Origin: Cyanobacteria bacterium FACHB-DQ100
Lineage (GTDB): Bacteria; Cyanobacteriota; Cyanobacteriia; Leptolyngbyales; Leptolyngbyaceae
Length of the DNA: 64,000 bases
Assembly: GCA_014695195.1 (NCBI GenBank)
Contig: JACJNW010000019.1
Location: 124,001 to 188,000, forward strand
Direction: 5' to 3'
Under the pieces are notes generated by a model, which saw only the letters and a list, made by a program, of their open reading frames with translations, made no database searches and was not told the origin of the DNA. This document shows positions 8,396 through 13,918 of this stretch, piece after piece. The stretch's first letter is position 1. Each line of letters starts with the position of its first letter. A program made the position numbers and the translations under genes.

Positions 8396-8981
8396 CTAAC
8401 GTCCGGCTTTGAGAGTTTGCTCAGCAGTCAATTGCAGGGTTGAGAATGCGGGAGAAACGATCGTATCGGTATGTTTGAACTTCCCTACTTCCCGATAACG
8501 ATCGTTCTCAAGTTGCAGCACTGTAATTATTGATTGCGCTGGATCAATCAGCCAATATTCAGAAATACCACGCTCAGCGTACTCTTTGCGCTTATCAACG
8601 TAATCGCGCTCTCTAGATTGCTGATCGCTGCTTGAAACAACCTCGACCACGAGCAAAGGAGGCGGCATTTCAGGTCTCAACACATTTCCTCCGGCAAGAA
8701 TTGCAACGGCAGATTCTTCGGTATGAACAATTAAGTCAGGTTGTCGCGCTGTTACCTTGGTAGAACGGGTAGCAATCTGATGCCCGATTGCTACCCGATA
8801 AGAGGGAATTCCCCATTTCTAAAAACCTGGCAAAAAGAAAGCTTGCAATCACAACGTTGAGTGGATTCTCCGGAGCCATTGCTACTAATTCTCCGTTTAC
8901 TAACTCATAGCGAGTATCAGTTCCGTCGTCATAGTTAAGGTATTCCTCAAAAGTTCCAAACCGCCGCTTTGCCTGCGTCAT
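8396..8981 (-). pseudogene. Uma2-family endonuclease-like gene (DUF820), frameshifted
   Basis: The 5' part in one frame reads MTQAKRRFGTFEEYLNY...YELVNGELVAMAPENP...FARFLEMG and then runs off into SGSNRASDC. The 3' part, in another frame, continues as IPSYRVAIGHQIATRSTKV...PDLIVHTEESAVAIL and LVVEVVSSSDQQSRERDYVDKRKEY. Together they make one complete Uma2 protein (PD-(D/E)XK nuclease-like fold) with a one-base shift in the run ATGGGGAATT near 8815. The ATG at 8981 overlaps the preceding stop as ATGA, so the gene was once translationally coupled to the large upstream gene. It is a pseudogene unless the shift is a sequencing error. Confidence 0.8.
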
Positions 8982-11900
8982 GAGAATTCGCCTCCCAACT
9001 GCGTCAAGAACTGCATTGCTTTTGCCACTGAACTTGCACAATCGTAAGGGGAAGTCTCATAGAACGATCGCCAAGCAGAGCTTTTGTATTCATCATAGCG
9101 ATCGCGATGCTCTGGATGTCGATCAAGCCATGCCAACCGCACCGCGTGACCAATTAGAACATCCATCACAATGTATTCTTCGACTTTGAACTCTGGGTTA
9201 CGTTGTGCGATCGCTGAAAGTTCCATCAAAGCTTCCACATTCGCCTGACGATATTCGGGAGCTTGAATTTTGTTGAGCAGATGTTCGATTTTTAGTGCAA
9301 AGTTTTTCTCACCTGCGGTCATTTCGGTCGTAAGAAATTCACTCTCAAGCCGATTCCGCCGTTCTAGTTTGTCTCCGATAACTAACCCCTGACAGTGATG
9401 TAGCAGCTTCCATACGCTTGGGTAGAAGTCTTTGGGAACGCGATTGAGTGCCCCATCCACTTGACGTTTACGCCACCAGTTTTGGGCACTGGGTTCGATT
9501 TCGGTTTTATCAACCAGAATCACCCAATCGATCGCGCTGTTAGGCAATTTCACTTTCAGCGATTCTTGTTTCAGCAGCGCTTTGTTTAGATCGGCATAAC
9601 CGACCACAATCTCACGCAGTCGAGTTTTAATTTCAAACGGACTTAAGCTCATCAGTTTCTCGTAAGCTTCATCCTGAGTCAGTTCTAACTCTTGCGCCAA
9701 ATCGGTTGTAATCAACAAAATTAGATAGCCGACTCGTAAGGTTAACAGTCCCTGGAATAGTTTCGGTTCTGCTTTGATCAATAAGCTGAGATAGATAATT
9801 ACTTCCTGAGTCAGTACCCGATCGCGGATATCTTCGCGGCAGAACTCACGAATCTTTTCTAAGACCTCCGTGTGTGGTAGCGGCTGCATAATCAATGAGT
9901 CTTCGCTGTAGGCACGTCCGATCGCAATCTGTTTCTGTCTCACTAAGATATCTGTGACAGCATCCGACAAGCCCACATCAATCTTATCGAGTAATCCTGC
10001 ACATCGCCGTAAGATGCTCCAATACGGCGATCTCGTAGAATCCCCCTTACTTGCTTTCGTGTATAGTTCATTCAGCAAGTCTCGAACTGTCACTGATGAC
10101 TGTGCCCCCGCAAATCCGGTTTCAAAGTTCAGTCCTTCTAGCCGCGCCAATGTTCCTAGTAGTTCAACTTGCTCATAAAGGTTCTGTGACGCTCGTAAGC
10201 TCTCCAACAGCACTTGAACATCAGTTTCATACTCTAGTTTGAATTCCTGCGCAATGCTCAATGGATGGGTACGATCGGGTTCAAATGCCAGGAAATAGCG
10301 AGACACACCCACTTCAGCGACTGATTTTGATTCAAACTGAAAGCCATGCAGCCAATCAATCCGCTCAGTTCCTGCTGTTCTGACAAACTGTTTAAGCTGA
10401 CCCAACTGAACCGGAATGTCTCCGCATCGCCCCGCTTGAAGTTCTTGCACCAAATCTAACAATGCTTCTCGACCGAGTTCATACATTTCATGCGTTAGCA
10501 ACAAGGTGACGATCGGGCGACCCACTTGTTGCCAATGTCGATGAATGTAGGCTAAATCGCTTTTGATGTTTGATACTAAAAAGTGATAGTCCAACGTTAG
10601 ATAAAACCGTTCCGGCTCAAGAAACGAAGGCAGGACTACGATCGTTTCTCCTTGAATGCGATACACCCGTGCAGTGGTGAGACTCCGCATTCGTCGCTGC
10701 GGTCGTCCGGTCAGCGCCAATTTTTCGTTGCGTCCCACCTGGGTATAAGCAGCAGCCAATTCGCGTGCATGACGGACTTGAATTGGTTCCACCTGTTCGA
10801 GCGTTTGTGTGGTCACATTGTTTGCTGCAAGTTTAGCCTGTAGCGTTTCATCCTCTGCTAACAGTGCAATCTGAATCGTTGCTTTTCGGCGTTGTCCTCG
10901 ACGTAAATAGCGCCCACAGGGATCAATATCTCCAACGGAAATCAATCCTTCATGCAGCATTTTCGCTAGCATGTACAAACTCTGTGCCCAAACTAGGGGA
11001 ATGTTTTCATTGGGAATGCGAGTTTGACTATGAGGATTCGCTTTTTCGGCTGCGATCGCGCTCTCCGGCACAATGAATAGTTCAGGCAATAGTTTCACTC
11101 CATCTCGCTCGACCGTCAGCGCATCTAAACGATCGAGATAGTCTTGTGCCTGAACGCGATCGCCCCGAAAAATGCCATCTAACGCAAGATAGGTAAAGAA
11201 TAAGGGCCATTCACACTCGACATGTTCAAACTGCTTCAGTTCAAACGGCTCATAGTGCAATCGTGTGGTGTCTTCGATCACGGTTTGATGTCCGTCGCGC
11301 AAGAAGCGCTTACAGCCATAGCGACCTTGCAGCAGATCGATGATCTTATCGCGGGTGCGATCGACTAGTTCGATATCCTCAACTGCAAACGCAGGAAACC
11401 CGATCGCGCTGAGCAATGCAGCATCGACTTCTTTAGAGCTTGATTCGCGTGGCAGCAATGATTCTAGCGTTGTCCGACAGCGAGCAATCTCATCCGGCAG
11501 CACATGAATCACTGAACTCTGTCCGCCCTGTGTTCCAAACAGATTCAGCCCATTCATCGCTTCGAGTGCCGCTTTTGCCATGCCGACAGAGCTGCCGTTC
11601 AGTTCGGGATTGCCGTGATTGATCTTGTTACCGCGCTCCCAAATTCCATAGTCAGGCGTGCGATAAGTCCGACCAATGTAGTACACCAGGTTTTGCACAA
11701 AGTTCACTTCATCACAGGTGTAAACAATGGACAATCCCGAAGTGGTCATCTGCGCCAACATCAATAGAAATACTGAAGTTGCATCTAGCTGCAAATGTCC
11801 CCATTCATCGTCACCGACTACCGTTGATCCGGTTGCAGTGTCATATTTTGCATGGAGGGCATCTAACGGATTCTGATTATGTTTGAACTTCTCAACCTTT

Positions 11901-12202
11901 TGCGCTTGCTGCATCATCGAAAACAACAATCCGCGCATCAACTTGACGACGCTATGTTCTAGCTCATAGGTGCGTCCACGATCGTCATCAAGTTTTCGAT
12001 AAGCTAATGCCAACCCCCAAACTGCCAGAATGCTATACACATTGTCCCGCACCCAAGCATCGGTGTAGTCTCCGTGAGCGTTCACGGCGGTACTGGCGGG
12101 AAGCAGTCCAGAAATTGGGTTCTGACGACTCAAGATAATCGATCGCACTTCTTCGTAATAGCGATCGAGCCGATTCGCGAGGTCAATTGCTGGAGTTGCC
12201 AT
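8978..12202 (-). CDS. GH15-like protein collinear with phosphorylase kinase alpha/beta regulatory subunit
   Basis: The 1074-residue cytoplasmic protein starts with a six-hairpin (glucoamylase-like) domain over about residues 1-420, including DAWVRDNVYSILAVWGLA at 48-65 and GDDEWGHLQLDATSVFLLML near 130. From about residue 300 it follows animal phosphorylase kinase alpha/beta closely: RFLRDG, EDTTRLHYEPFELKQFEHVE, CEWPLFFTYLALDG, WAQSLYMLAKML and the later VGRNEKLALTGRP. No gamma kinase domain is present. Homologues are commonly labelled glycoside hydrolase family 15. A role in glycogen metabolism is plausible but unproven. The next gene downstream is coupled by ATGA. Confidence 0.85.
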   Translation of the reverse strand: MATPAIDLANRLDRYYEEVRSIILSRQNPISGLLPASTAVNAHGDYTDAWVRDNVYSILAVWGLALAYRKLDDDRGRTYELEHSVVKLMRGLLFSMMQQAQKVEKFKHNQNPLDALHAKYDTATGSTVVGDDEWGHLQLDATSVFLLMLAQMTTSGLSIVYTCDEVNFVQNLVYYIGRTYRTPDYGIWERGNKINHGNPELNGSSVGMAKAALEAMNGLNLFGTQGGQSSVIHVLPDEIARCRTTLESLLPRESSSKEVDAALLSAIGFPAFAVEDIELVDRTRDKIIDLLQGRYGCKRFLRDGHQTVIEDTTRLHYEPFELKQFEHVECEWPLFFTYLALDGIFRGDRVQAQDYLDRLDALTVERDGVKLLPELFIVPESAIAAEKANPHSQTRIPNENIPLVWAQSLYMLAKMLHEGLISVGDIDPCGRYLRRGQRRKATIQIALLAEDETLQAKLAANNVTTQTLEQVEPIQVRHARELAAAYTQVGRNEKLALTGRPQRRMRSLTTARVYRIQGETIVVLPSFLEPERFYLTLDYHFLVSNIKSDLAYIHRHWQQVGRPIVTLLLTHEMYELGREALLDLVQELQAGRCGDIPVQLGQLKQFVRTAGTERIDWLHGFQFESKSVAEVGVSRYFLAFEPDRTHPLSIAQEFKLEYETDVQVLLESLRASQNLYEQVELLGTLARLEGLNFETGFAGAQSSVTVRDLLNELYTKASKGDSTRSPYWSILRRCAGLLDKIDVGLSDAVTDILVRQKQIAIGRAYSEDSLIMQPLPHTEVLEKIREFCREDIRDRVLTQEVIIYLSLLIKAEPKLFQGLLTLRVGYLILLITTDLAQELELTQDEAYEKLMSLSPFEIKTRLREIVVGYADLNKALLKQESLKVKLPNSAIDWVILVDKTEIEPSAQNWWRKRQVDGALNRVPKDFYPSVWKLLHHCQGLVIGDKLERRNRLESEFLTTEMTAGEKNFALKIEHLLNKIQAPEYRQANVEALMELSAIAQRNPEFKVEEYIVMDVLIGHAVRLAWLDRHPEHRDRYDEYKSSAWRSFYETSPYDCASSVAKAMQFLTQLGGEFS

Positions 12203-12304: not shown

Positions 12305-12469
12305 ATGAACAACGCTGATCAACGCAATCAAATTGCCCCTCAGGCAACCGTTAAAGCTTAGATTCAGCGTAATCGGGAATTACAGGAACAATTCAACAGG
12401 GTTATCAATGACACACGATCGCCCCGCACCGAGTTTCTCAAGCGGCAGCGAAACGAAGATCAGGAATAG
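12305..12469 (+). pseudogene. Possible small gene interrupted by an in-frame TAG
   Basis: An ATG at 12305 opens MNNADQRNQIAPQATVKA, then TAG at 12359-12361, then 35 further in-frame codons, IQRNRELQEQFNRVIND... to a second TAG at 12467-12469. Both halves are rich in Gln, Asn and Arg and look like one short helical protein of 54 residues in which a CAG codon became TAG. The 3' end overlaps the convergent amidohydrolase. Evidence is composition only. Confidence 0.3.
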
Positions 12470-13881
12470 CCGATCGTTGATCCCGGTAGTCTCATCACCG
12501 ATCGATATCGCACTTCAGTTTCTGCAACAGAGATCGATTTGCGTTGTGTTGTCCATTCACTACGATCAAACAGTTTTTCTCTCAATTCGTTCACATTCAC
12601 ATTGCAGATTGCATGATCAGAAATGACTTGCCGACCATTCACCCAAACATAACTTACAACATTTACAGGGCGACCGAGAATCAGTAAGCCGATCGGATCA
12701 GTTCGCGGTAACAAGGACAACGATTTCAGGTCGTACATTACCAAATCTGCTTTCTTGCCAACCGTCAAAGATCCAAATTGATCTGCGCGATCCAAGCCTG
12801 TTGCACCGCCTAGGGATGCCATTTCCACAGATTGTCGAGGAGTAATCCAGTGATGATAATCAAAGTCTGTGACTGAATGCAAAATTGACCCAATTTTAAT
12901 CGCTTCGAGTAAATCTTGAGAATCATTACTTGCAGCACCATCACACCCAAATGTAACATTCACTCCTGCTTGACGGTACTTCAGAATTGGAGCGATCCCA
13001 CTTCCTAAGCGTAAGTTGCTCAATGGATTGTGAACTACGGTCGATCTCGTTTCTGCCATGATCTCAATATCTTGGTCATCGAGCCAAACACAATGTGCTA
13101 GGGAAGTTTTCTCACTCAAAAATCCAATCTCTTTAAGATGTTGAACAGCACTACACCCATACTTTTCTTCAGCCAGCATCTTTTGGGCTTTGGTTTCGAG
13201 TAGATGAGCATGGCGACTCAGGTTGTATCGATCGCTGAGTTCAATACAGCCTTCAAACAACGCATCCGAGCAAAGCTGAATTCCAGTCGGCGCAGCGACA
13301 ACTTCAATTCCTTGATCCGGACGATGAAACTGGTAAATTGCTGCTTGAAGAAGTTCAAGCACTGCCTGAGTCGGCTGTTCAAAGTTGCTATGTCTTACTT
13401 CATCACCACCAGTCGGAATGCCTGCGCTCAACGCCTCATCCTGAATCAACGGCGCGATGAAGGCTCGAATGCCCACTTCCCGATAACCTCGATCGACCGC
13501 AGCAATGGTTTCGATTTCTTTTCCTGGAATCAGCACCAAATGATCGACAACACTCGTTCCACCGGTCATGAGAGTTTCGATCGCGGTGCCCACTGCACTG
13601 AGATAAGCTTGCTCCGGGTCGAGCGGTGTAGTTTCGTAGAGTTCTGCGATCCAGAGTTCGAGCGGCACAGGCGGAATCAATCCACGCTGCCACATTTCCG
13701 AGGAGTGGGTATGAGCATTCACAAATCCAGGCAGTAAAAGCTGATTCGTGCCATCGATCGCAGTTCCAATCACCGCTAAGTTAGGCGCGATCGCAACAAT
13801 GCGATCATCTTGGATTTGCACATCGACTGTTTTATACCCCTCACCCTCTGCAATCAAAACATTCTGAATCGTAAAACTCAT
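12460..13881 (-). CDS. Amidohydrolase of the guanine/SAH deaminase (SsnA/MtaD-like) group
   Basis: A metal-dependent TIM-barrel deaminase-type amidohydrolase of 473 residues. The HTH metal motif is at H57 and H59 (GFVNAHTHSSEMWQRG). Further ligands and catalytic residues are H227 (RHAHLLE), H264 (SLAHCVW), H285 (VVHNPLSN) and D315 (TFGCDGAASND). This pattern fits the cytosine/guanine/S-adenosylhomocysteine deaminase branch; the substrate cannot be fixed from sequence. The ATG at 13881 is preferred over a TTG at 13899 because MSFTIQNVLI is a typical family start. It precedes no obvious pathway partner; the cytochrome b-like gene lies 37 bases upstream on the same strand. Confidence 0.8.
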   Translation of the reverse strand: MSFTIQNVLIAEGEGYKTVDVQIQDDRIVAIAPNLAVIGTAIDGTNQLLLPGFVNAHTHSSEMWQRGLIPPVPLELWIAELYETTPLDPEQAYLSAVGTAIETLMTGGTSVVDHLVLIPGKEIETIAAVDRGYREVGIRAFIAPLIQDEALSAGIPTGGDEVRHSNFEQPTQAVLELLQAAIYQFHRPDQGIEVVAAPTGIQLCSDALFEGCIELSDRYNLSRHAHLLETKAQKMLAEEKYGCSAVQHLKEIGFLSEKTSLAHCVWLDDQDIEIMAETRSTVVHNPLSNLRLGSGIAPILKYRQAGVNVTFGCDGAASNDSQDLLEAIKIGSILHSVTDFDYHHWITPRQSVEMASLGGATGLDRADQFGSLTVGKKADLVMYDLKSLSLLPRTDPIGLLILGRPVNVVSYVWVNGRQVISDHAICNVNVNELREKLFDRSEWTTQRKSISVAETEVRYRSVMRLPGSTIGYS

Positions 13882-13918
13882 AGATCGATGCCTACTCAAT
13901 ACATAGCAGCCTAAGCTA

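Follow-up and report, generated by a model that had tools for sequence, protein, structure and literature searches.

The window, by which we mean the whole 64,000-nucleotide stretch of DNA that was analysed, carries on its minus strand a gene for a 1074-residue protein in which a glucoamylase-like GH15 domain is followed by a KPBB_C domain, the order found in the alpha and beta subunits of animal phosphorylase kinase (PhK). Its open reading frame had been proposed by a sequence-only reading, which gave no strand; the frame is real and its coordinates are exact. The features needed for what follows are listed below, with domain names (D1 etc.) taken from PMC10978961.

8978-12202, minus strand: gene for the GH15-KPBB protein related to PhK alpha/beta; 1074 aa, beginning with ATG and without CaaX tail
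10958-12202, minus strand: D1, glucoamylase-like GH15 domain, residues 1-415 (borders approximate)
12044-12049, minus strand: WxRD motif with R52-D53, common to canonical GH15; human beta has Q at R52
11906-11989, minus strand: residues 72-99, corresponding to Asp68-Arg94 of human alpha, a helix packed against beta; contains LMRGL
11636-11638, minus strand: E189, equivalent to human alpha Glu185 and to the GH15 GIWE glutamate (general acid)
11081-11083, minus strand: E374, equivalent to human alpha Glu371 (general base); human beta has K408
10373-10957, minus strand: D2-like region, residues 416-610
10427-10444, minus strand: residues 587-592, where human alpha has its Lys588/Tyr593 contacts with the gamma N-lobe; E587 and R592 here, not conserved
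9692-10237, minus strand: D3/D4-like helical region, residues 656-837, from the PDB-chain search and the match of the C-terminal piece
8996-9691, minus strand: KPBB_C domain, residues 838-1069 (Pfam E=7.1e-103)
8396-8981, minus strand: Uma2-family gene in two frames, split near 8811-8820, with an ATGA overlap with the stop of the PhK-like gene
12460-13899: amidohydrolase-like gene (named by eye), on the other flank of the PhK-like gene

Family, homology and distribution

Pfam also matches Glyco_hydro_15 to the protein (E=4.3e-92), and no NCBIfam model scores above cut-off. With the GH15-like domain and KPBB_C collinear with PHKA and PHKB, as in KPBB proteins, assignment to the KPBB/GH15 family can be regarded as safe on sequence grounds; the family is already covered by Pfam, and the gene in the window is an ordinary member of it. 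A phmmer search of all PDB chains gave PHKA1 (E=2.1e-248) and PHKB (E=6.2e-205), and PhK alpha and beta chains were the only meaningful matches, by phmmer and in a profile search alike. The match begins at residue ~10 and extends to ~1000 in alpha and ~1054 in beta, so that collinearity with PhK alpha, which had been placed from about residue 300 onward, holds but starts far earlier. The motifs on which it was based (RFLRDG, EDTTRLHYEPFEL, CEWPLFFTYLALDG, WAQSLYML and GRNEKLALTGRP) are all found, in the order of PhK alpha. Similarity extends well beyond the six-hairpin domain: besides the KPBB_C match, the C-terminal piece past residue 647, searched alone, matches PHKA1 (E=1.7e-48) and PHKB (E=2.5e-35). 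Over D1-D2 the protein shares 52% identity with PHKA1 and 45% with PHKB, PHKA1 and PHKB being 42% identical to each other, and in the same comparison alpha is nearer than beta for all 111 cyanobacterial sequences.

Of 39 near relatives 30 have KPBB_C, as do 115 of the 194 Cyanobacteriia genomes, nearly always in single copy; phylum-wide it occurs in 103 of 386 genomes, every above-cut-off match lying inside the class of the window's genome. Synechococcus elongatus is its only carrier among 14 control genomes. The gene is missing from the small-genome members of family f2 and from many f21 genomes. A GTDB scan with the protein as query, which reaches close relatives only, gave cyanobacteria and nothing else, and other phyla may hold members; tblastn of a plasmid collection gave one match, of 23% identity, in an E. 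coli record. Recent transfer into the window's genome was considered and rejected: the GC content of the gene (48.0%) is close to that of the window (47.9%), and the gene is present in all seven congeners searched. Three irregular cases were seen: one genome (G222, loci L091 and L092) is the only one with two full-length PhK-like copies, and the KPBB_C match falls in two pieces in L224 (G453), within one open frame and hence as an insertion, and in G012 (C1:275260-275965), in two frames and possibly as a broken gene. In the literature we found no functional study of any cyanobacterial member; a proteome paper on Synechococcus WH8102 uses the term "glycogen phosphorylase kinase" (PMC6716455).

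The stop of the gene had been described as coupled to a decayed Uma2 gene. The coupling is there (ATGA, 8978-8981), and the decay consists of a single frame change near 8811-8820. It is incidental, a matter of a local neighbour without bearing on function, since in a 97%-identical relative (L010) Uma2 is intact with the same overlap, and other close relatives (L011-L013) have no Uma2 at the equivalent place.

The GH15 active site

E189, E374, R52 and D53 are identical throughout a set of 111 sequences and in all of a further 40, and this invariance extends to lineages that are only 42-45% identical. The two GH15 catalytic glutamates, which the sequence-only reading had singled out for checking, are thus both present in all 151 sequences. 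Conservation is highest in D1, where 33% of the positions are invariant, against 18% in KPBB_C and 5% in D2. Canonical GH15 proteins from cyanobacterial genomes align with it at both WxRD and GIWE; the base glutamate of these proteins coincides with E374 after one gap is moved by hand. Their YRY arginine lies opposite E318 in one alignment and is ambiguous in the profile comparison; with its counterpart so unsure, the substrate may be a different one, or there may be no turnover at all.

Human alpha carries the same pair, Glu185 and Glu371, and beta is without some of the catalytic residues, according to the 2024 cryo-EM study (PMC10978961), in which both the alpha-gamma-delta complex and the holoenzyme were inactive on maltose, isomaltose and glycogen, and PhK bound acarbose. 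An intact site does not therefore prove catalysis. AlphaFold models of the protein were poor (mean pLDDT 54 for the whole and 61 for D1-D2) because only 29 near relatives were usable as input, and we accordingly make no claim as to active-site geometry; Foldseek with these poor models still placed PhK chains first.

The sequence-only reading had left the choice between a regulator of glycogen metabolism and a glucoamylase-like enzyme. Of the two, the enzyme is the better supported, with glycogen as no more than a candidate target. We tentatively take the protein, with somewhat less than even confidence, to be a stand-alone intracellular GH15-type glycoside hydrolase with alpha/beta architecture and no animal-type kinase partner. 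This is favoured because the dyad is invariant in all the sequences compared, because D1 is so much better conserved than D2, and because the two kinase contacts, the animal add-ons and an RKxIS-type motif on the genome's own glycogen phosphorylase, all taken up below, are absent. Such an enzyme would be a single-gene cyanobacterial version of the PhK alpha/beta fold, presumably cytosolic and probably homodimeric, with the animal alpha-beta helix as its interface. It would cleave alpha-glucosyl linkages with inversion, in the manner of GH15, E189 being the acid and E374 the base, and glycogen-derived glucan would be its default substrate by family.

The main rival to the enzyme model is a non-catalytic glycan sensor or scaffold, which we think rather less probable though still a serious contender: the end of a glucan would be bound in the GH15 pocket, and the rest of the protein would signal this to a partner protein. 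That human alpha keeps the whole pocket without glucoamylase activity, in a PhK able to hold acarbose (PMC10978961), speaks for it, as does the large and partly invariant KPBB_C part, which canonical GH15 enzymes of ~600 aa do not need. Binding alone, on the other hand, would call for no exceptionless acid and base across so many sequences, although the same logic hits the inactive human alpha.

A divergent glycosyltransferase among the neighbours

Gene neighbourhoods were compared at 120 loci from 26 families. At 33 of these, in seven families, a GT26 (WecG/TagA/CpsF) glycosyltransferase gene stands head-to-head with the PhK-like gene, upstream and divergent in all 33. Linkage is complete in f2 (18/18) and f12 (2/2), and is seen in f25 (4/5), f20 (6/15) and once each in f19, f54 and f4; examples of the GT26 gene are:

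L137, 5292-6038: GT26 gene, in head-to-head arrangement with the PhK-like gene
L112, 4830-5561: GT26 gene, same arrangement
L083, 5248-5994: GT26 gene, same arrangement
L208, 4369-5127: GT26 gene, same arrangement

The interval between the two genes is often short or overlapping, the overlaps partly reflecting over-long ORF starts. The linked loci share ancestry within families, which brings the independent observations nearer to seven than to 33; if the arrangement is ancestral, it is one old arrangement retained in seven lineages. GT26 is the sole neighbour conserved in position, and its linkage is new here. Within the stretch read, it is absent from the remaining 87 loci and from the window's genome, whose GT26 copy lies on another contig (C23). 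A single copy of this type of GT26 gene is carried by 177 of the 194 genomes in the class, many of them without a PhK-like gene, and the small f2 genomes are without both; phyletic dependence of the PhK-like gene on GT26 was rejected, GT26 being near universal in the class.

In f2 only, a UDP-GlcNAc 3-dehydrogenase-like gene (Gfo/Idh/MocA) is convergent with the PhK-like gene and ends a few bases from its stop (L137:9295-10287 and 11 other f2 loci). No glycogen gene is conserved as a neighbour across the loci, a point against the hydrolase model, and the neighbourhood in the window has no glycogen link; nor is any protein-kinase-like neighbour conserved. Other candidates were set aside: ExbB/ExbD-like, MgtE-like and tRNA-guanine transglycosylase-like neighbours (names by eye) as confined to single families, and histidine-kinase-like and ABC-ATPase-like clusters (16 and 8 families), of mixed orientation, as superfamily noise.

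It is conceivable, though in our estimation unlikely, that the enzyme acts with the GT26 transferase on an envelope or lipid-linked glycan and not on glycogen. The single orientation of the pair in seven families and its constancy in f2 would fit this, as would the dehydrogenase-like gene often found on the other side in f2 and the joint absence of both partners from small f2 genomes. That absence fits a single episode of genome reduction as well, and an ancient gene order, or a promoter region used by both genes, may last without a shared pathway; the many genomes with GT26 and no PhK-like gene, and the 87 loci and window genome without linkage in the stretch read, also count against it. The pairing nevertheless provides a specific alternative to glycogen as substrate, and one worth testing.

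Kinase-linked features, origin and known systems

In human PhK, Lys588 and Tyr593 of alpha hold the N-lobe of the kinase, a hydrophobic surface of D5 binds the autoinhibitory region of gamma, and the alpha CaaX cysteine is farnesylated and sits in the gamma interface (PMC10978961). The two N-lobe contact positions are occupied in the window protein by E587, which is Glu or Asp in most of the 151 homologues, and by R592, which is variable among them. No CaaX cysteine (position -4) occurs in any of 120 sequences. Farnesyl transfer is not known in bacteria. A pattern search of the main glycogen phosphorylase of the window's genome gave no match to an RKxIS-type motif, so that the phosphorylatable N-terminal motif expected on the phosphorylase where there is a PhK holoenzyme was not found. 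Since both the contact test and the CaaX test failed, "phosphorylase kinase subunit" would not be a safe label for the protein. The LMRGL of the dimer helix, by contrast with these features, is kept in every cyanobacterial sequence, and suggests a homodimer formed through the alpha-beta helix. Regulation of a bacterial Hanks-type protein kinase, as alpha and beta regulate gamma, is very improbable: the genome encodes 22 Pkinase matches and the architecture is that of the animal regulator, but the two N-lobe contacts are not conserved, CaaX is absent, the linkers are short, no kinase is a conserved neighbour and the phosphorylase has no RKxIS-type motif.

In rough trees with a saturated GH15 outgroup, the two human subunits, both on long branches, are placed within the cyanobacterial diversity and apart from f2 and f24. 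Rooting with canonical GH15 was set aside on account of that saturation, and we therefore claim no direction of transfer; that eukaryotes received the gene from cyanobacteria is no more than a possibility. Quite unlikely, in our judgement, is the fuller scenario in which the protein would be a living form of the enzyme ancestral to PhK alpha/beta, acting with GT26 on some glycan that is not glycogen, and eukaryotes would have acquired the gene from cyanobacteria and made of it a kinase regulator. The 2024 cryo-EM paper (PMC10978961) raises the question of why animal PhK alpha should retain an intact glucoamylase site when no activity can be measured. A 52%-identical bacterial relative, encoded by a single gene, without a kinase, and present in S. 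elongatus, a model strain species, makes the fold's own role and the ligand of its pocket directly testable.

Set beside known systems, the window protein shares its whole architecture with human PHKA1 (PDB 8jfk and related), Glu185/Glu371 of which correspond to E189/E374; PHKA1 differs in having Lys588/Tyr593, the CaaX and linkers of 144 and 77 residues, whereas the cyanobacterial protein has neither these two contacts nor the CaaX, and its two linkers are of about 44 and 29 residues. Human PHKB has the same whole architecture and the lower D1-D2 identity given above, but has lost the arginine (Q85) and the base (K408), both kept in the cyanobacterial protein. Canonical GH15 glucoamylase-like proteins (~600 aa, L184-L191) align with it at WxRD, GIWE and the base glutamate; they are without KPBB_C or D2-D5, and their profile match to it is weak (hhalign probability 84-88%). 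From other cyanobacterial KPBB proteins, such as those of Synechococcus elongatus and the Nostocaceae, to which it is 42-97% identical, it shows no difference of kind; the genes for such proteins in seven other families are paired with GT26, and that of the window stands unpaired.
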